In this document: positions 52,478 to 62,756 of the stretch, piece after piece
Layout: the number at the start of each line of letters is the position of its first letter
How positions within the stretch are numbered: the stretch's first letter is position 1
Assembly (NCBI RefSeq): GCF_032164335.1
Contig: NZ_CP134152.1
Span: 4,402,001-4,466,000, forward strand
Reading direction: 5' to 3'
DNA length: 64,000 nt
From: Winslowiella toletana
Lineage (GTDB): Bacteria; Pseudomonadota; Gammaproteobacteria; Enterobacterales; Enterobacteriaceae
The notes under the pieces: model-generated
Seen by the model: only the letters and a program-made list of their open reading frames with translations
Told to the model about the DNA's origin: nothing
Database searches by the model: none
Made by a program: the position numbers and the translations under genes

Positions 52478-53140
52478 TTACAGCGCCAGAGTACCAAACG
52501 CCGCTGACCAGTCGTGGTCGAAACGTTTCAGGGCATCATCGACTGCCGGATCCAGTAAAAACATCTCTGCTACCTGCGGGTCAACGGTAATCGCCTGACA
52601 ACCTGCCAGCATGCAGTCAAGCACCTGACGCGGAGTACGGAAACTGGCTGCCAGCACTTTGCTGTCAGGGCAATGCAGGCCGATCAGTTTCTGTAGCTCG
52701 GTGACCAGCCCAATGCCATCACCGCCCTGGCTGTCAATGCGATTCACATAAGGCGCGATATAACTGGCTCCGGCCAGCGCAGCAAAGAAACCCTGCCCCG
52801 CACCGTAGACCGCCGTGCCCAAAGTCGGAATATTGAGCTGAGTCAGTTGCTTAATGGCGTTAAGCCCGTTGTGCGTTACCGGCACTTTTACTACCAGCTC
52901 AGGAATCACCTCCCGCAGTTTTAGCGCCTCTTCCACCATCGCTGCCGGTTCTCTGGCAATGACCTGGGCAAACAGCGTGCTGTCAGCCGGCAGCAACGAT
53001 GCCAGTTCCTCGAGTACACTAGTAATGTCGCGCTTACCGCGCGCGACAATGCTGGGATTGGTAGTGACACCTTTAATCGGTAACACCGCCGCCAGGCGTT
53101 TCACCTCAGCGACATCTGCCGTATCTAAATAAAATTCCAT
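52478..53140 (-). CDS. fsa: Fructose-6-phosphate aldolase (Fsa)
   Basis: Class I aldolase of 220 residues, the length of E. coli FsaA and FsaB. It cleaves fructose 6-phosphate to dihydroxyacetone and glyceraldehyde 3-phosphate, or related sugar phosphates. The Schiff-base residue is Lys85 in [19 protein letters not shown] near 25-35, [20 protein letters not shown] near 109-128 and [20 protein letters not shown] are conserved. It is the last gene of a four-gene operon with PTS components (18-bp gap to EIIC), which implies that it acts on the sugar phosphate formed by this PTS. Confidence 0.93.
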
Positions 53141-53157: not shown

Positions 53158-54417
53158 TTAGCGGACAATCAGTCCGAGCAGGATCCCGATAACACCAAAA
53201 TCTGAGTCACTGAAGGTCGTATTCGCCAGACCAATACTGCCCAGAACCGGCAACAGGAACACCGGCAGGAAAGTGATCAGCAAGCCATTGGCAAATGAAC
53301 CCAGAATCGCACCGCGTCTGCCGCCAGTGGCGTTGCCGAATACCCCAGCCGCCGCGCCGACAAAGAAGTGCGGCACCACGCCCGGAATAATCACCGTCAT
53401 ATTCAACGCGTACAGCAGAAACATACCGAGCACGCCGGCCGCAAAGCTGCTGAGGAAGCCGACCAGTACGGCATTCGGTGCATAGGGAAACACTACCGGA
53501 CAATCGAGCGCCGGCTTGGCGTTCGGTACCAGTTTGTCAGAGATACCTTTAAATGCCGGAACAATCTCAGCAATCACCATTCTTACGCCCTGCAGCACGA
53601 TATAGACACCTGCAGCAAAGGTAATGGATTGCATCAGAGAAAACATAAACCAGTTCTTACCACCGGCGTTCATCTCTTTTACCGCCGACGGACCGGCCAC
53701 CAGACAAGTAACAATAAAGATAAAGAACATGGTGAAGGCAATGGCAACCGGCGTATCGCGCAGAAACAGCAGGCTTTTCGGAACATCCATATCTTCCGTG
53801 GATTTCTCTTTATTGCCGAACTTGCTGCCAATAAATGCCGAAAGAAGTTGAGAAATTGCCGAAAAATGGCCGAAAGCGACATCATCCGAACCGGTAACTT
53901 TTTTCATATAAGGATGAATAATCGCCGGTGAGATCACCATTGCAAGCCCCACCACAATCGATCCAACGGCAATCAGCGTGGCGCCTTGCAAGCCGGCAGT
54001 CGCCAGAATAACCGCCACCATCATCGACATAAAGAGCGTGTGGTGCCCGGTCAGGAAGATAAATTTCAGTGGCGTAAAGCGCGCAATTGCAATGTTTATC
54101 ACCATAGCGAAGAACATAATCATCGCCATCTCGGTGCCGAAACTCTTCTGCGCAACGGCAACAATCGCTTCGTTATTTGGCACCACTCCGGCAATGCCGA
54201 ACGCGTGATGGAATATCACCGCAAAGTCGCCCAGAGAAGAGACGATTAATCCAGCACCGGCGCCGAGAATAACAAAACCCATGACGGTTTTAACCGTGCC
54301 TTTAATACATTCTGTCACTGGCTTTTTTTGCGCAATCAGACCAATAAGCGCAATCAGACCGACTAATATCGAGGGCTCAGCCAGTACATCACTCATCAAA
54401 AAACGGAAAAATTCCAT
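53158..54417 (-). CDS. PTS system EIIC component, ascorbate (UlaA/SgaT) family
   Basis: Inner-membrane permease of 419 residues with about ten to eleven hydrophobic segments, in the UlaA/SgaT superfamily of PTS transporters. It opens MEFFRFLMSDVLAEPSILVG; family stretches are IFHHAFGIAGVVPNNEAIVA, MFFAMVINIAIARFTPLKFI and FLTGHHTLFMSMMVAVILA. E. coli UlaA is somewhat longer (465). The substrate is not known: the ulaD/E/F and ulaG enzymes of ascorbate use are absent, and an aldolase gene is present in their place. Confidence 0.9.
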   Translation of the reverse strand: MEFFRFLMSDVLAEPSILVGLIALIGLIAQKKPVTECIKGTVKTVMGFVILGAGAGLIVSSLGDFAVIFHHAFGIAGVVPNNEAIVAVAQKSFGTEMAMIMFFAMVINIAIARFTPLKFIFLTGHHTLFMSMMVAVILATAGLQGATLIAVGSIVVGLAMVISPAIIHPYMKKVTGSDDVAFGHFSAISQLLSAFIGSKFGNKEKSTEDMDVPKSLLFLRDTPVAIAFTMFFIFIVTCLVAGPSAVKEMNAGGKNWFMFSLMQSITFAAGVYIVLQGVRMVIAEIVPAFKGISDKLVPNAKPALDCPVVFPYAPNAVLVGFLSSFAAGVLGMFLLYALNMTVIIPGVVPHFFVGAAAGVFGNATGGRRGAILGSFANGLLITFLPVFLLPVLGSIGLANTTFSDSDFGVIGILLGLIVR

Positions 54418-54438: not shown

Positions 54439-54726
54439 TTATAACGCGCCAAGTTCAGTCAGTGCGACAGATAAACGTTCTTTCATCGCCACTTTATCCA
54501 CCATGTTATTCAACGAGACGATTTTTCCCGCCACGTTCTGCGCCACCAGCTGATCAGCAATATCTTTAGTTCCGACAAAAATATCACTCGGTGTGCCCTT
54601 GGCTGAGCCTAGATCCACGTGGTCCACTTCTGCCGCCACGCCTAAATCTTTTACGATAGATTTAATACTCATTTCCATCATTAAGCTGGTGCCGAGACCG
54701 TTACCGCATACGACTGTGATTTTCAT
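54439..54726 (-). CDS. PTS system EIIB component, ascorbate family
   Basis: Cytosolic phosphocarrier of 95 residues that passes phosphate from EIIA to the sugar during transport. The active residue is Cys7 in MKITVVCGNGLGTSLMMEMS, the UlaB/lactose-type EIIB P-loop. It is 21 bp upstream of EIIC and 23 bp downstream of EIIA, in one operon. Confidence 0.92.
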   Translation of the reverse strand: MKITVVCGNGLGTSLMMEMSIKSIVKDLGVAAEVDHVDLGSAKGTPSDIFVGTKDIADQLVAQNVAGKIVSLNNMVDKVAMKERLSVALTELGAL

Positions 54727-54749: not shown

Positions 54750-55193
54750 TTAATAGTTGGCAAGGATGGATAAAATTTGTTCTTTATTGGTAGCCGCCAT
54801 AATGGCTTGTACATGCTGGTCATTATCAAAAAGCTGCGCCAGACTGGAAATAATCTCGATATGACTGTTACTGTCAGTTGCAGCCAGTACAATCAACAAC
54901 TTAACCGGATCATTTCCTTCTGAATTAAATGTCACCCCGTCTTTTATCAGCGTTAAACAAAGCGACAAGCGATTAACGCCCTCTTCAGGCCGCGCGTGCG
55001 GCATGGCAATGCCCGGCCCCACCACGTAATAAGGGCCAATCGCTTCATGTGAACGATAAATCGCATCAATATAAGATGGCTCAATGGCCTTGCTGAGCAG
55101 CAGAGGCTGACAAGATTTGGCGACTGCATCACGCCAGTCCTGGCAACTTTCAAGGATTTGTACGGTTTCTGATGTGAGTAATTGATTCAACAT
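54750..55193 (-). CDS. PTS system EIIA component, ascorbate/mannitol type
   Basis: Phosphocarrier of 147 residues, first gene of the operon. The phosphorylated residue is His66 in GPGIAMPHARPEEGVNRLSL, the EIIA(Mtl/Fru/Ula) signature. LLIVLAATDSNSHIEIISSL follows. It resembles E. coli UlaC (154 residues). A candidate CRP site lies upstream, and the LacI-type regulator gene diverges from it. Confidence 0.92.
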   Translation of the reverse strand: MLNQLLTSETVQILESCQDWRDAVAKSCQPLLLSKAIEPSYIDAIYRSHEAIGPYYVVGPGIAMPHARPEEGVNRLSLCLTLIKDGVTFNSEGNDPVKLLIVLAATDSNSHIEIISSLAQLFDNDQHVQAIMAATNKEQILSILANY

Positions 55194-55272: not shown

Positions 55273-55369
55273 GGTATCGCTAACAGTTATAATTATCATC
55301 AATTGTGATCTGTCTATCGTTTGACTGTAAACCTGTTGTTGCCCTGGGTACAATTGATGCAAACTTATC

Positions 55370-55388
55370 GATGCTAAGGAATAGCATC
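55370..55388. promoter_or_regulatory. perfect 7-5-7 inverted repeat upstream of the LacI-type gene
   Basis: GATGCTA-AGGAA-TAGCATC, 89-107 bp upstream of the regulator ATG. A further GATGC lies at 55356-55360. It is a candidate operator for the adjacent double-HTH regulator. Confidence 0.5.
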
Positions 55389-55476
55389 AGTTGATATAAA
55401 AATAATACATTTTCATGGCGTTATATACCCATCAGTTTAGCTTCGCGGGAATTAGCCGTCATTGCAGGAGATTGAC

Positions 55477-56664
55477 ATGAGCAAGCGTCGCAGCAGTGGT
55501 CGGGTAACACTCCAGGATATCGCTAACTATGTTGGTGTAGGAACCATGACGGTTTCCCGGGTAATGCGTAATCCCGACCAGGTGTCTGAAAAGCTGCGCG
55601 TTAAAGTGGAACAAGCCGCTGTCACGCTGGGTTATCAGCCTAATACTGATGCCAGCGAACTGGTAGGCGGTAAGGCCAAAGTCACGCTTCAGGACGTGGC
55701 ACAGCATGCCGGTGTTGGCCCAATGACCGTGTCGCGCGCGCTGCGCGATCCGACGCAGGTTTCCGAAGAGTCGCTGAAAAAGATTCTCGCGGCGGTTGAT
55801 GAGTTGGGTTACGTTTCGCAACAGCATGCCTCAGCGCTCGCTACCTTTCAGAATAGCGTGGCGGTGCTCTATCCGTTCTTTAATGATAAACCCAGCATTG
55901 CCTTCCTCGGCGCACTGCAGGATACCCTGAGCAAACGTCAATTTCAGCTAATCCAGGCCTGCCATGAATATAATCAGCATAGCGAAAGCAAAGTGGTGGA
56001 GAAACTGTTGCAGCATCGCCCGGCGGCACTGATCCTGTTTGGCGCGCAACTCTCATCACAGACCCAGGCACTTATCCAGAACAGTGGCGTTCTGACGATC
56101 AATATTTGTAGCGCCGAACCGTTCGCTGCCGACTTGACGTTTAATTTCGCCATGTCAGAAGCTGGCGAAAAACTAACCTGTCATCTACTGGAAAAGGGTT
56201 ACAAAAACATCGCTTTTATTGGTGCCCATACTGTTAATCGCCTGCAGAAACAGCAAATCAATGGCTGGAGTAAAGCGTTACTTTCGCACTACCACCATGC
56301 TGATATGAAAATCACCGTGCCGGAAGCGCCGGATTTTAAACTGGGCCGCTATGCGATCGGTGAGCTGCTGCAGACTTATCCGGATATTGATGCGGTTATT
56401 TGCAGCCATGACGAAATTGCTTATGGCGTACTGTATGAATGTCAGCGACGGATGCTTAAAGTGCCCTATGATTTGGCCGTCGCCTGCCTTGAAGGTTCAG
56501 AAAATTGTGAACACAGCTATCCCGCCCTTACCGCTATGCAGATCAACTATCAGAAGCTTGGCGTACAGATAGGAAACGCCATCAGCACCATGATCGCCTC
56601 CCCTGCCGACGAAAACGCGGTGCAGAATCTCAGTTATAAACTGGAGATTCGCTCAAGTACCTGA
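55477..56664 (+). CDS. LacI-family regulator with two tandem HTH domains
   Basis: Transcription regulator of 395 residues from ATG 55477, preceded by GCAGGAG. Most LacI-family proteins are 330-345 residues. Here a complete LacI-type DNA-binding domain occurs twice: about 10-56 (VTLQDIANYVGVGTMTVSRV, ending LGYQPN) and about 69-115 (VTLQDVAQHAGVGPMTVSRA, ending LGYVSQ). By eye, 25 of 47 aligned positions are identical. A short linker joins them. The periplasmic-binding-like effector domain (about 125-390) follows, with VAVLYPFFNDKPSIAFLGAL at its start and IDAVICSHDEIAYGVLYE near 305. It diverges from the PTS/aldolase operon, which it probably controls in response to a sugar phosphate. Confidence 0.93.
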   Translation: MSKRRSSGRVTLQDIANYVGVGTMTVSRVMRNPDQVSEKLRVKVEQAAVTLGYQPNTDASELVGGKAKVTLQDVAQHAGVGPMTVSRALRDPTQVSEESLKKILAAVDELGYVSQQHASALATFQNSVAVLYPFFNDKPSIAFLGALQDTLSKRQFQLIQACHEYNQHSESKVVEKLLQHRPAALILFGAQLSSQTQALIQNSGVLTINICSAEPFAADLTFNFAMSEAGEKLTCHLLEKGYKNIAFIGAHTVNRLQKQQINGWSKALLSHYHHADMKITVPEAPDFKLGRYAIGELLQTYPDIDAVICSHDEIAYGVLYECQRRMLKVPYDLAVACLEGSENCEHSYPALTAMQINYQKLGVQIGNAISTMIASPADENAVQNLSYKLEIRSST

Positions 56665-57424: not shown

Positions 57425-58057
57425 TTAATCCAGATTATGTCGCCGGGCAAACACCATCATTTCAAACTGATTTTTTACGCCAATTTTATCGGCCAGCCGT
57501 CGTTTGTAGGTACTGACCGTCTTATTGCTGATACTCATTTCTTGACCAATCTGAATATTACTCATGCCGCGAGATAAATAGCCCAGCACTTTCATCTCCT
57601 GATTAGAGAGACTTTCGATCAGTTTAACCTCATACCGGGTGTCGAATATCTCCGGGGAAGTGGCAGCAGCGCCAGAGCGCCGGGGATAGTAGCCATAGCC
57701 GCGTAGCACTGCTCGTGCAGCATCGGTAAATTCGCTGAGGTTATTTTTCTTGCTGACAAAACCATCGGCACCGGCGTTCATACAGCGGGTGACATAGTGT
57801 GGCTCACTTTTACTGGTCAGCACCAGAATGCTGACTTCGCATCCCGCTAAACGCAGTCGCTCAATAACATCCAGCCCGTTTAGTGCCGGGATATCGATAT
57901 CCAGCACAATTAAATCCGGAGGATGACTGGCCGCCAGGCGAACCGCATCCAGCCCATTGTCCGTTTCAGCAATCACTTCATGGCCTTCGTTTTCCAGTAA
58001 CATACGCACGGCCAGGCGCGCAACGGGATGATCATCAACCAACAGCACTGTGCTCAT
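57425..58057 (-). CDS. EvgA/BvgA-type response regulator (NarL/FixJ family)
   Basis: Response regulator of 210 residues. The receiver domain (about 1-120) has the acidic pair Asp8-Asp9, phospho-acceptor Asp53 (LIVLDIDIPALNG), Thr81 and the switch Lys103 (GFVSKKN). The LuxR-type HTH is at about 148-205 (LSNQEMKVLGYLSRGMSNIQ, then ISNKTVSTYKRRLADKIGV). The 'LDIDIPALNG' and 'GADGFVSKKNNL' stretches match EvgA and BvgA best. The likely kinase is the EvgS-type protein encoded 1.1 kb upstream on the same strand, with an opposite-strand regulator gene between them. Confidence 0.88.
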   Translation of the reverse strand: MSTVLLVDDHPVARLAVRMLLENEGHEVIAETDNGLDAVRLAASHPPDLIVLDIDIPALNGLDVIERLRLAGCEVSILVLTSKSEPHYVTRCMNAGADGFVSKKNNLSEFTDAARAVLRGYGYYPRRSGAAATSPEIFDTRYEVKLIESLSNQEMKVLGYLSRGMSNIQIGQEMSISNKTVSTYKRRLADKIGVKNQFEMMVFARRHNLD

Positions 58058-58503
58058 TATTTTTCCCTTAAAATCTGCTGTTACCGGGCGCTATCCTGCC
58101 CCCTCACAGCTTTTCGACAGGATACAGATAACTATCAGGGCTGTATCTTTATATCGCGAAGCTGTTAATTAATAGTTTATCAGTAGTCTGTTACTGACAC
58201 ATCTGCTTTTCTGAAATATAAATATCCGCAACGCGTTTAATTATTTAAACATCACCATGTAGGAAGTGGACTACATGAGTGTCAGACCAGGATGGCATAA
58301 CTTTACGACTGACCTGCTATTAAATCATGAAATCAGAATGCATTATTGCCTATGTCACTCTGACAACGACCGCAGGCAAACAATATCTTCTTAAGTATAT
58401 TAGCTTCGCCATCATTGCCATACTGAGTTTTATTAATGCCGCAAAGCTTATTAATATCCAGGAAAGCCGCCACTGTGTTACGCCAGCATTAGGAAATAAG
58501 TTT
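58058..58503. other. AT-rich divergent region between the EvgA-type and RcsA-like genes
   Basis: A 446-bp gap that must contain both promoters. It is clearly more AT-rich than the flanking core genes. An in-frame upstream ATG (58327) would extend the plus-strand regulator by 59 residues, including a hydrophobic stretch YISFAIIAILSFINAAKLI, but it lacks a good ribosome site. Confidence 0.5.
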
Positions 58504-59142
58504 ATGGAAAGCGACTACAATATCCTGCTGATTGATGAGTGTTACCTCTCACGCCTCGGCTTAACGTTATTATTAAAAGAGTCAGGCTATCATCATCTCC
58601 GTTTTCATCATGCCGCCTCGCTGGATAATGCCCGATGCTTAATGACATCAGGAAAAATTAACGCCATCATTATCGACTGTGATAACGACGTTTCTCTGTC
58701 CAGCACCAAAGTTTTTCTGCGTGAAACGCGCTTAAAAGCGCCAGAAATAAAACTTATCGTCTACACGCGTAACTTCTCTCGCTCGATATTAAGAATGTAC
58801 CAGACCTTTATCATTCACGGTTTTTTATCGCGCCGGGACCCCACCGACAGCGTGACGGAACTGCTGCACAGTATCTTCTTTATGGGAAAAAATGCGTTAA
58901 GTCCGGGCTTTTTTCAGCAGGCTGAAAAAATTAATCTGAATGCCGCCAGTCTGACCCCGGCAGAAAGCCGCACCCTGCGTTTCTTACTGGATGGTAAAAC
59001 CCCGGCCCAAATTGGTCGTCTGACTCAGCGCAGCGTGAAAACCATCAGCAGCCAAAAACGTAGCGTGATGCGCAAGCTGGGCATCACCAAAACCAGTCAG
59101 TTAATAATGATGCGCGCAGGATTGTACCAGACGTTTTACTGA
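58504..59142 (+). CDS. RcsA/EvgA-like LuxR-family regulator with atypical receiver
   Basis: A 212-residue protein from ATG 58504, which follows AGGAAATAAG. The receiver-like domain (about 1-125) keeps Asp11-Glu12, Asp58 (AIIIDCDNDVS) and Thr88 (IVYTRN), but the switch lysine is replaced by Arg110 (GFLSRRDP). Spacing around Asp58 is unlike a normal 'LDxxMP' motif. The LuxR-type HTH is at about 149-206 (LTPAESRTLRFLLDGKTPAQ, then VKTISSQKRSVMRKLGITK), with the 'SSQK' form seen in RcsA-type proteins. The gene converges on evgS with a 23-bp gap and diverges from the EvgA-type gene. If the longer start at 58327 is used, the protein would gain an N-terminal membrane helix. Confidence 0.8.
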   Translation: MESDYNILLIDECYLSRLGLTLLLKESGYHHLRFHHAASLDNARCLMTSGKINAIIIDCDNDVSLSSTKVFLRETRLKAPEIKLIVYTRNFSRSILRMYQTFIIHGFLSRRDPTDSVTELLHSIFFMGKNALSPGFFQQAEKINLNAASLTPAESRTLRFLLDGKTPAQIGRLTQRSVKTISSQKRSVMRKLGITKTSQLIMMRAGLYQTFY

Positions 59143-59165
59143 CAGCAGCAGCCTGAACGCCGAAA

Positions 59166-62100
59166 TCACAGGTTCTGCTGTTGCTTAATATACTGCTCAA
59201 TCGCCTGATTGAGCTGAATAACCCTGTTCAGTGTGCCGTTAATCTCTGCGGTAATGGCGAGTACATCGCGCTGCTCACAACGGCTCTCCAGGCTGCGGCA
59301 ATCGCTTTCAGCCTGACTGGCACCAATTATCTGTGCAACACCCGCCAGACGATGCAGGCAGTGGGCCAACCCCTCCCAGTCCTGCTGCTTAAAGAAATTA
59401 TCTGCCTGTCGGACATCATCCTCATTTTCATCTTTAGTGGTTTGCAGCAAGGTCATCATTAATTGGCTATCATGCTGCGTCAGGCTGCGCAGTGCAGCAA
59501 TATCCACCAGTTGTTCAAGTGAACAGGCCTGCTGTCGGATGGTGATATTGTGGAATATCGAGCGTAACAGCCTGTCCAGCTGTGTGAGCCGCAGGGGTTT
59601 AAACAAGCAGTAATCCATACCTGCGGCCAGGCAGCGTTCCCGCTCTTCCGGCTGGGCATTCGCCGTCAGACCAAGAATAATTACCGGATGCTGTTGTTCA
59701 CCCCGGATGTTTTTTGTCAGCGTCAGGCCATCCATCACCGGCATACTGCAATCAGTAATGATTAAATCAAAACAGTCGCGACGCCATGCCTGCAACGCCT
59801 GCTCACCCTCTTTAGCTTCCGTCACCTGATGCCCGAGTCGGGCCAGCTGATGTTTGAGTAACAACCGATTAGCCGGATGATCATCCACGATAAGAATTTT
59901 CAGCATCCGCAGCGTATCGCCGATTTCCTGCGTTTCAGTGACGCGACTAATCTGCGCATTCCGACAGCTAACCGGCAGGCTAACCTTAACACTGGTGCCC
60001 CATCCAGACCGACTGTGCAAAGCAATCGTCCCCCCCATCATGGTGATTAACTGATGGCAAATTGCCAGCCCCAACCCGCTACCACGCTGTTTTTTGCCGC
60101 TTTCGCTTTGTTCAAATGGGGTAAACAGCCGCTTCTGCTCCTCCAGAGTGATCCCCATCCCCGAGTCGGTTACCATCAGTTCCAGCATTGCATCCTGTTT
60201 TTCACCGCGCACACAGCTCAGTCTCACCTTAACCGTTCCACTGTCGGTAAATTTTATCGCATTGCCGATCAGATTAGAGAGCACCTGGCGAAAGCGCATC
60301 GGATCAAGGTAAATATCATCGGCAGATGACTCTTCGGATTCACAGCTCAGCATCAGGTTTTTCTGGCGCGCCAGGCCAGCAAATACCCGAGCCACCGGGG
60401 CAAGAATCTGATCAAAACGTACCCATTCCGGTGCCAGTTCCAGTTTGCCGGACTCAATTTTGGCCATATCCAGAATATCGCCAATTAAACCCAGTAATGA
60501 CTGTGCTGATTCATAAGCGACATGCACCGGCTGATTATCGTCACTGAGCGCGCGATTCAGCACCTCCAGCTCCAGCAGGCCAATAATCGCGCTGACAGGC
60601 GTACGGATCTCATGGCTGATAGTGGCAAGAAAAATACTTTTTGCCCGATTAGCCTGCTCGGCACGTTCGCGCGCCACGGAAAGCGCAGCCAGCAGATCAT
60701 CATGATCGGTAATATCCTGCCAGCTGCAAATCAGCCCGGCGATCTGATGAGCATGATCATAAAAAGGCACCGCCTGATGAATGATGATCCTTTTTTCAAC
60801 CCCGTTATATACTGTGTAGCGTCGCGCATCGCCGCTACCGGCATTCTGGGCCAGAGCCTGGCAGAGCTGTGGATAAACCGCCGCTAGCGGATGTAACGGC
60901 CATTTCAGTGATGACTGAATCAGACGAACATCTGCCTGCCGGAAGAAATCGCACCACGCCTGGTTGTGGTCAATAATTTCTCTGTGACGATTGACCACAT
61001 ACACGGGTACTGGCGTACCGTTAAACAGCGTTTCATGAAAGGTGGCCTGTTCCTGCAACTTAAGCTGCATTTTCAGTCGGCCACGAATTTCGCGCCGCAG
61101 ATAATAAATCCACACCAGCGAAGTGATCACTACCATGGCAAATATTCCAGCCAGCCAGTAGAACTGCATTCGATACAGAGTCCAGGTTTGCAGTTTTACA
61201 TTAGGCGTTGCCTGCCATTTGTTTACCAGCAACGAAATATCACGGGGAGGAATATCTGCCAGTACTTTATTGATAATACTGTGCAATTCTGGCAAATCCC
61301 GCCTGACGCCAAAGGTAATACGCGAAGGTGTCTCGCCCAGCTGGGCCGCAATCTTTAACTGGTCGCGGAAATAGTGATCAATCATGTAGCGGGCGCCCAT
61401 CAGATCATGCACTGCGCCATCGGCTTTCCCCTCATTAACCATCTGCAAAGCCACATTGGCATTCGCCGCCTCAATCAGCGTAATCTCCGGGTAGCGCTCT
61501 GCCAGCCACGCCATCTGGCTGTGATCGGCGGTAACCGCCAGCCGCTTGATATTGGAAAAATGAACATCAGAATTAAACCGCTCGCGCACCACCAGCACAA
61601 AAGGCTGGAACAGATAAGGCCGGGTGAACAGCAGCGGCTTCTCCTGTAGCGGGCTGGTGTTCATTACCGTCATTAAATCGCCCTTCGCTTCCAGCACCTC
61701 ATTCAGCATGGTGGCTTCAGATCCGGCCTTTACCGGCACAAAATTCAGGCCGGTACGCAGGCTGATAAAGCGTAAAACGTCAGCAGAGATACCGTGAAAT
61801 TGTCCTTTCTCATCGAACATGGTAAAGGGTGGATTAACCGCATCGACGACAATTCGCAGCTGACGCTGCTCACTGATCCAGCGCGTTTCACGTGGCGTCA
61901 GATTCAGTGGCGAATTCAGCTGCCAGAGATCCAGCCCATGGCTCCATTGGTTGAAAATCGCTTTATGTTGAAGTGGCGGAATGGCATTCAGCGCGGCATT
62001 AACCGCGTTTTTCAACGTAACATTGTCGCTACGCAGCAACATACGCGGACCGGTATCCTGCGGTGGTAATAATTTAATGATGGCCAGCACATTATTATAG

Positions 62101-62756
62101 TGGCGCTCAATCAAAAAACTGACGCTGGTCAGATTGCCAATCGCATAGTCGTTTTCACCAAACGCGACGGAAGCCAGCGCACTTTCCAGGGAAGCGTAAC
62201 GATTAACTTTTGCCAGCGGATAGTGGCGATTAATCCACGCATTATCATGATACTCACCGACCAGTGCCAGGCGGATGGGTGCAGTTTGCGGTGCGTCGGG
62301 TTTAAACCGCGTAGTGGCTGAAACCAGCGTTGGGCGATCGGGCATAAATGATTGCGTGCTGATTATTGACTGATTATGCGCCAGCGGCTCGCCGCTGTCG
62401 TCCAGCACCAGGTCAACATCTTGCTGATGAAGTGCCGTCAGCGCAGCATCGCGATCGCGATAACGCAACACCTTAAGCGACAATCCCAGATAGCGCGAGA
62501 TAAGCAGGCTGTAGTCGGCAGATATCCCTTCGAAAAGGTCCGGATCGGCAACCCTGTCAAACGGCGGATTATCTGGCGTAAAGGTGGCAATTCGCATTTC
62601 CCGCTTAATTCCCAGCCATCGCCACTGCGCATCACTGAGCGCCAGTTTTGGCGGCGGCAGCGTCTCGCGATGCAATAATTGCATCGACTGCGGTGCAGCC
62701 GCAGCCAGACTGAAGGGCAGCAACAACAATAATCCGCTTAAAATAACGTAGCGCAT
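59166..62756 (-). CDS. EvgS/BvgS-type hybrid sensor kinase
   Basis: A 1196-residue phosphorelay kinase (E. coli EvgS is 1197). In order: signal peptide (about 1-20); two periplasmic Venus-flytrap SBP_bac_3 domains (about 52-275 and 298-515, each opening with a strand such as MRIATFTPDNPPFDRVADPD or LRIVVDAVNPPFTMFDEKGQ); transmembrane helix (about 531-553); PAS-like domain (about 570-680); HisKA with His715 (ATISHEIRTP); HATPase with N-box NLIGNAIKF near 828-836 and GSGLGLAIC near 892-900; receiver with Asp1002 (IITDCSMPVMDG); and Hpt with His1135 (LHRLAGVAQIIGA). The last residue spacing H-x-L-A-G-x-A-x-x-I-G-A fits an Hpt. The signal is unknown; E. coli EvgS responds to mild acid and alkali metals. 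Confidence 0.93.
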   Translation of the reverse strand: MRYVILSGLLLLLPFSLAAAAPQSMQLLHRETLPPPKLALSDAQWRWLGIKREMRIATFTPDNPPFDRVADPDLFEGISADYSLLISRYLGLSLKVLRYRDRDAALTALHQQDVDLVLDDSGEPLAHNQSIISTQSFMPDRPTLVSATTRFKPDAPQTAPIRLALVGEYHDNAWINRHYPLAKVNRYASLESALASVAFGENDYAIGNLTSVSFLIERHYNNVLAIIKLLPPQDTGPRMLLRSDNVTLKNAVNAALNAIPPLQHKAIFNQWSHGLDLWQLNSPLNLTPRETRWISEQRQLRIVVDAVNPPFTMFDEKGQFHGISADVLRFISLRTGLNFVPVKAGSEATMLNEVLEAKGDLMTVMNTSPLQEKPLLFTRPYLFQPFVLVVRERFNSDVHFSNIKRLAVTADHSQMAWLAERYPEITLIEAANANVALQMVNEGKADGAVHDLMGARYMIDHYFRDQLKIAAQLGETPSRITFGVRRDLPELHSIINKVLADIPPRDISLLVNKWQATPNVKLQTWTLYRMQFYWLAGIFAMVVITSLVWIYYLRREIRGRLKMQLKLQEQATFHETLFNGTPVPVYVVNRHREIIDHNQAWCDFFRQADVRLIQSSLKWPLHPLAAVYPQLCQALAQNAGSGDARRYTVYNGVEKRIIIHQAVPFYDHAHQIAGLICSWQDITDHDDLLAALSVARERAEQANRAKSIFLATISHEIRTPVSAIIGLLELEVLNRALSDDNQPVHVAYESAQSLLGLIGDILDMAKIESGKLELAPEWVRFDQILAPVARVFAGLARQKNLMLSCESEESSADDIYLDPMRFRQVLSNLIGNAIKFTDSGTVKVRLSCVRGEKQDAMLELMVTDSGMGITLEEQKRLFTPFEQSESGKKQRGSGLGLAICHQLITMMGGTIALHSRSGWGTSVKVSLPVSCRNAQISRVTETQEIGDTLRMLKILIVDDHPANRLLLKHQLARLGHQVTEAKEGEQALQAWRRDCFDLIITDCSMPVMDGLTLTKNIRGEQQHPVIILGLTANAQPEERERCLAAGMDYCLFKPLRLTQLDRLLRSIFHNITIRQQACSLEQLVDIAALRSLTQHDSQLMMTLLQTTKDENEDDVRQADNFFKQQDWEGLAHCLHRLAGVAQIIGASQAESDCRSLESRCEQRDVLAITAEINGTLNRVIQLNQAIEQYIKQQQNL

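Follow-up and report, generated by a model that had tools for sequence, protein, structure and literature searches.

The window, a 64,000-nucleotide stretch of Winslowiella toletana DNA, contains a gene for a LacI-family regulator that carries two helix-turn-helix (HTH) domains in tandem. An AGGAG ribosome-binding-type sequence lies immediately 5' of its ATG, and the gene is divergent from genes for a PTS IIA-IIB-IIC system and a fructose-6-phosphate aldolase (FSA), which probably form an operon (Table 1). The intergenic region contains three operator positions (OpA, OpB and OpC) and two CRP-like boxes separated by 50 bp centre-to-centre; visual inspection places the left box near −40 of a putative PTS promoter. 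An inverted repeat (GATGCTAAGGAATAGCATC, window positions 55372-55390) in the stretch from the operators to the start of the regulator is degraded in a relative that is 90% identical (L061). REP-like palindromic repeats (TAGGGGCGAGGCATGCCTCGCCC, GGGTCAGGCATGCCTGACCC) have been inserted several times between OpC and the regulator start at L062, L064 and L080, lengthening this gap in the regulator leader to 307-703 bp. Elsewhere in the window, at 57425-62756, a BvgS-like hybrid sensor kinase of 1196 aa that has two solute-binding-type domains adjoins two LuxR-type response regulators.

Table 1. Positions of genes, operators and protein segments at the tandem-HTH locus (window coordinates)
Feature	Position	Strand	Evidence or remark
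FSA	52478..53140	-	end of likely operon
PTS IIC, ascorbate/UlaA type	53158..54417	-	locus comparison
PTS IIB	54439..54726	-	locus comparison
PTS IIA, mannitol/ascorbate-type	54750..55193	-	first gene of putative divergent target operon
CRP-like box 1, TGTGATGGTTGTCAAA	55254..55269	.	8-9/10 consensus positions; same place in 20/20 tandem loci
OpA, GGTATCGCTAAC	55273..55284	.	central CG kept in 20/20 tandem loci, partly by construction
OpB, GTTATAATTATC	55286..55297	.	arms G.TA and TATC kept in 20/20; centre degenerate, CG in 1/20
CRP-like box 2, TGTGATCTGTCTATCG	55304..55319	.	7-8/10 consensus positions; same place in all tandem loci
OpC, TGATCTGTCTATCG	55306..55319	.	altered third operator position; overlaps CRP-like box 2
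Tandem-HTH LacI-family regulator	55477..56664	+	ATG 55477, stop ending 56664; 395 aa
HTH1 (residues 10-56)	55504..55644	+	Pfam, conservation, AlphaFold2; dN/dS 0.076 across tandem orthologues
Hinge 1 remnant / linker (residues 57-68)	55645..55680	+	mean identity 39%; dN/dS 0.33
HTH2 (residues 69-115)	55681..55821	+	Pfam, conservation, AlphaFold2; dN/dS 0.086
Hinge helix 2 (residues 116-125)	55822..55851	+	A118, L121, A122 invariant; AlphaFold2
Effector-binding / dimerisation core, Peripla_BP_3 fold	55852..56661	+	Pfam; structure comparison

The first-pass annotation had proposed that two complete LacI-type HTH domains precede a single effector core, and a Pfam search bore this out. The LacI model (PF00356) matched two stretches of the regulator (E 1.1e-35 in all, 121.6 bits; cutoff 27), and Peripla_BP_3 (PF13377) matched C-terminal to both HTHs with 84.2 bits. 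The count of 25 identical residues among the 47 aligned between HTH1 and HTH2 was also confirmed exactly. An AlphaFold2 monomer model built from a 39-row alignment (mean pLDDT 84) contained the three-helix HTH twice, each copy followed by a short hinge helix, and then the single core, for which the closest solved structure was 3d8u (TM 0.90 of target). Both modelled hinge helices (residues 57-63 and 115-122) were of low confidence, and residues 58-65 had pLDDT values below 50. The stretch between the two HTHs, about 15-17 residues in most tandem proteins, varied in length and was longest in L073. A basic N-terminal arm (KRRSSGR) precedes HTH1, and such an arm has been kept in HTH1 only.

LacI-family regulators are textbook one-HTH dimers. 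The hinge between HTH and core that typifies the LacI/GalR family, with its conserved Leu, is present in this protein, whereas the usual single HTH per chain is replaced by two here and in 19 orthologues. As one HTH per chain is usual rather than family-defining, the tandem protein is a variant within the LacI/GalR family, and it belongs to the GntR-like branch. The NCBIfam model for Pseudomonas GntR was the best match; its score of 285.7 lay under the cutoff of 400, so the regulator is not GntR itself. Scores for IdnR (203.4, cutoff 500) and PRK14987 (170.7, cutoff 433) were likewise below threshold, and the CytR model PRK11041 (124.8, cutoff 436) did not indicate CytR orthology.

Tandem-HTH orthologues were found in 20 genomes, every one divergent from a PTS IIA-IIB-IIC operon; FSA follows the PTS genes in several of these loci, not all. 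A protein search placed the form in 15 of 37 genomes of the source genus, and a 392-genome draw from the family added five from other genera (G278, G189, G357, G144 and G256). Winslowiella iniecta B120 carries a relative that is 90% identical. A duplication introduced by local misassembly, which the first-pass annotation had named as grounds for dismissing the tandem form, was rejected because 20 genomes assembled independently of one another encode both HTHs. Genomes were sampled rather than surveyed exhaustively. Within a 296-genome draw from the order, tandem forms occurred solely in members of the same family; none was detected in 369 genomes of the class and 399 of the phylum. HTHs that had diverged too far could escape detection in these draws. 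Viral contigs yielded no relative of the regulator, and the best plasmid matches began at query residue 47 or later and are therefore single-HTH forms.

In about 27 further genomes a single-HTH orthologue of 340-348 aa (e.g. at L082, L083, L087 and L074) adjoins the same type of divergent operon, with the same operator and CRP-like box positions. These proteins are 42-50% identical to the tandem protein over HTH2 and the core, and the adjacent IIC proteins are 82-87% identical. They differ in having one HTH, and each of their operators is a perfect palindrome of the TGATAGCGCTATCA type centred on CG. The presence of single-HTH homologues at this locus had also been put forward as evidence against the tandem form; they exist, but as they represent the ancestral state they do not mark it as an artefact. 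A more distant single-HTH set (regulator 33-37% identical, IIC about 58%) is a paralogous system, because genome G007 carries both systems. Paralogous PTS loci with their own single-HTH regulator (L075, L107-L111) have two perfect operators each, with a separation of about 34 bp except at one locus. At L107 a gene resembling the C-terminal half of transketolase follows IIC. Genes for pta-ackA and nudix-hydrolase-like genes are found close to L074 (orthologous type) as well as to L110 (paralogous type). Genus g131 holds both states, tandem at L073 (G256) and single-HTH at L074 (G153) and L101 (G327), a hint that the locus was transferred as a whole.

A maximum-likelihood tree of the cores alone placed the 20 tandem proteins in one clade (support 100/100) inside the single-HTH proteins. 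Their neighbours were the single-HTH proteins of loci with three operators, and the joint group had support of 97/96. A tree of IIC and IIA gave the same split between tandem and single-HTH loci (99/100); as it agreed with the regulator-core tree, the locus has evolved as a unit. When the HTH domains were analysed in isolation, all HTH1 sequences formed one clade and all HTH2 sequences another (100/99 each), and both lay among single-HTH domains. In the full alignment, single-HTH proteins aligned with the beginning of HTH1 and with the last part of HTH2, as an in-register tandem duplication would predict. An origin of HTH1 in another paralogue was rejected, since both HTHs group among those of the single-HTH orthologues, to which they are similarly close (mean identity 30.7/47 for HTH1 and 30.6/47 for HTH2); gene conversion between the copies had left no sign in the two clean clades. 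As the HTH1 and HTH2 clades are separate and the tandem proteins form a single clade, we conclude from these comparisons that one intragenic event duplicated the HTH and hinge in frame, once and in one ancestor, and that the copies have diverged since without mixing.

dN/dS was summed over 13 close pairs, with saturated or zero-dS pairs left out, and was lowest in the core (0.048), low in both HTHs and highest in the linker (Table 1). By this measure both HTHs are under strong purifying selection. LacI positions G16, M18, T19, S21 and R22 did not vary in either head or in any single-HTH protein, and V20 was invariant in HTH1 and present in 17 of 20 HTH2 sequences. The selection and the invariant recognition residues suggest that both copies remain functional DNA-binding heads, and the earlier idea that one HTH serves only for dimerisation is disfavoured by the same residues. 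The copies might prefer different half-sites, as had also been suggested; position 17 differs between them, but it also varies among single-HTH proteins whose palindrome is unchanged. The hinges are unequal. The hydrophobic residue at LacI position 48 is lost from the HTH1 hinge (E, Q or T in 20/20) and P49 is often lost, whereas the HTH2 hinge starts normally. HTH2 thus resembles the canonical head joined to the core, and HTH1 resembles an extra head that is intact but only loosely tethered.

The operators changed as well. Thirteen single-HTH loci have three near-perfect palindromes (halves of the type TGATAGC/GCTATCA) with a central CG, with centres 13 bp apart for OpA-OpB and OpC a further 21 bp away (22 in L090). 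At three single-HTH loci, L098, L099 and L113, the palindromes are spaced by 22 and 22 bp rather than 13 and 21, and the more distant single-HTH loci lack OpB, with OpA and OpC mostly 34 bp apart. All 20 tandem loci retain the three positions and their spacing, including the 13-bp step, with less perfect palindromes. The central CG was found at OpA, OpB and OpC in 20, 1 and 0 of the 20 tandem loci versus 13, 13 and 13 of the 13 three-operator single-HTH loci, the value for OpA being partly by construction because this site was located via its own CGCTAAC core. For OpB the difference gave a Fisher p of 2e-8 with shared ancestry ignored. Compared with an even palindrome with a central CG, OpA has the CG but imperfect symmetry, its right half GCTAAC being invariant, and OpB and OpC are without the CG, OpC having changed to TGAYCGGCTTATCA. 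Among nine dereplicated loci the four central bases of OpB carried 0.55-1.08 bits against a background of about 0.7, and most arm positions 2.0. These alignments establish that the operator design changed along with the HTH duplication; since the tandem HTH and the changed operator map to one branch, the link between protein and operator rests on a single event. The comparison supports the earlier suggestion of a longer or composite operator, as units spaced by 13 bp occur in 20/20 tandem loci and the second differs from that of the single-HTH ancestor. The genome contained no further composite site at fewer than three mismatches, control counts matching the rest, and the ancestral palindrome was found only once, with one mismatch. 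The CRP-like boxes (7-9/10 consensus positions) occupy fixed flanking places in tandem and three-operator single-HTH loci alike.

Parts of this arrangement recur in known systems. The gluconate and idonate repressors GntR and IdnR share the LacI family and the M18/T19/S21/R22 recognition residues with the tandem protein, and the 13-bp spacing is a recorded arrangement for GntR-type sites, as in the overlapping operator pairs at gntKU (PMC4052901); they differ in having one HTH and in controlling gluconate rather than PTS genes. At nucleoside-gene promoters CytR binds between two CRP sites (PMC3454398), much as the operators here lie between CRP-like boxes, but CytR has one HTH and a variable half-site spacing, whereas here the spacing is fixed and each chain has two HTHs. 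AraC/MarA-type regulators also have two HTH motifs per chain and asymmetric or repeated sites, but are of unrelated fold and family, without a LacI-type hinge or core. Searches of open-access full texts revealed no LacI-family protein with two HTHs.

In LacI-family structures such as PurR and LacI, the hinge helices insert at the central CG. As only OpA still offers a CG and only HTH2 has a normal hinge, HTH2 is best matched to OpA, and with HTH2 so placed HTH1 fits the hinge-free arms of OpB. We therefore favour a model, at a probability of about 0.5, in which a dimer with four heads places HTH2 at OpA and HTH1 at the OpB arms and blocks CRP-dependent PTS activation until sugar binds; its head placement, stoichiometry, CRP interplay and effector are inferred. 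The regulator would repress the divergent PTS IIA-IIB-IIC-FSA operon as a dimer. HTH2, joined to the core through its normal hinge helix, would read OpA, the CG step of which would take the hinge helices, and HTH1 on its flexible linker would make additional contacts, without hinge insertion, with the arms of OpB, which abuts OpA at 13-bp spacing. Seated on OpA and OpB between the CRP-like boxes, the dimer would block activation by CRP. By analogy with the family, a sugar or sugar phosphate of the PTS-FSA pathway would bind the core and lift repression. Simultaneous reading of two abutting operators by a naturally four-headed LacI-family dimer, one operator with inserted hinges and the other by hinge-free contacts only, is a tentative proposal that we hold at somewhat short of an even chance.

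Other assignments of the heads were weighed against this model. HTH1 might be a non-operator module that provides non-specific DNA affinity, contact with CRP or an aid to dimerisation, leaving HTH2 alone to read OpA; the flexible and poorly conserved linker, the basic arm peculiar to HTH1 and the flanking CRP-like boxes would suit such a role, but the recognition residues are equally invariant in HTH1 and HTH2, and the OpB arms are conserved in 20/20 loci, so that we consider it unlikely. The OpB arms could, for their part, have been kept for another protein. Quite improbable, in our judgement, is a chain-wise arrangement in which HTH1 and HTH2 of one chain occupy the halves of OpA and those of the other chain the halves of OpB, on a 25-bp composite palindrome GATA-N4-TAAC-N-GTTA-N4-TATC. 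L079 has this palindrome in perfect form (GATAACGCTAACTGTTAGCGTTATC), and in the source genus GATA predominates at the outer half-sites and GTTA at the inner ones. However, OpA and OpB are inequivalent, with an invariant and a degenerate centre, respectively; mean mirror identity was 4.3 and 3.85 of 6, no better than the symmetry within OpA (4.6); and the third half-site is GATA, not GTTA, in five loci. A mirror-symmetric 25-bp operator, attractive from L079, was thus rejected as the main model given the unequal centres.

Given the short linker, two dimers may bind in place of one dimer that spans all four half-sites, or one head may stay unbound. In one such version, two tandem-HTH dimers on OpA and on OpB/OpC would use their extra heads to bridge dimers or DNA segments in a loop or higher-order complex. 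The persistence of three operator positions is in keeping with this, as is the view that LacI-family sites spaced by 21-22 bp are cooperative (PMC4052901), but OpB and OpC are without the CG step used in hinge insertion, which makes the arrangement very improbable. The less perfect palindromes of tandem loci might instead reflect relaxed selection, with one HTH redundant and the operators drifting in a weakly used system; with dN/dS below 0.09 for both HTHs and arms that are invariant at 57% protein identity, this explanation is hardly credible.

In this lineage the 13-bp site pair came first, as single-HTH relatives have it; duplication of the head followed, and the second site lost its hinge step and kept its arms. 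Ravcheev et al. listed 110 operons in which LacI-family sites lie about 13 bp from each other, and described the use of such sites as hard to explain structurally (PMC4052901). In one lineage, the tandem protein could be nature's solution to this overlapping arrangement. If so, it would show joint reading of 13-bp-spaced sites, which two ordinary dimers are considered unable to share. With natural proteins and sites from before and after the duplication, the 13-bp question can be tested directly, and the tandem regulator offers a natural design for LacI-type switches that read longer operators.
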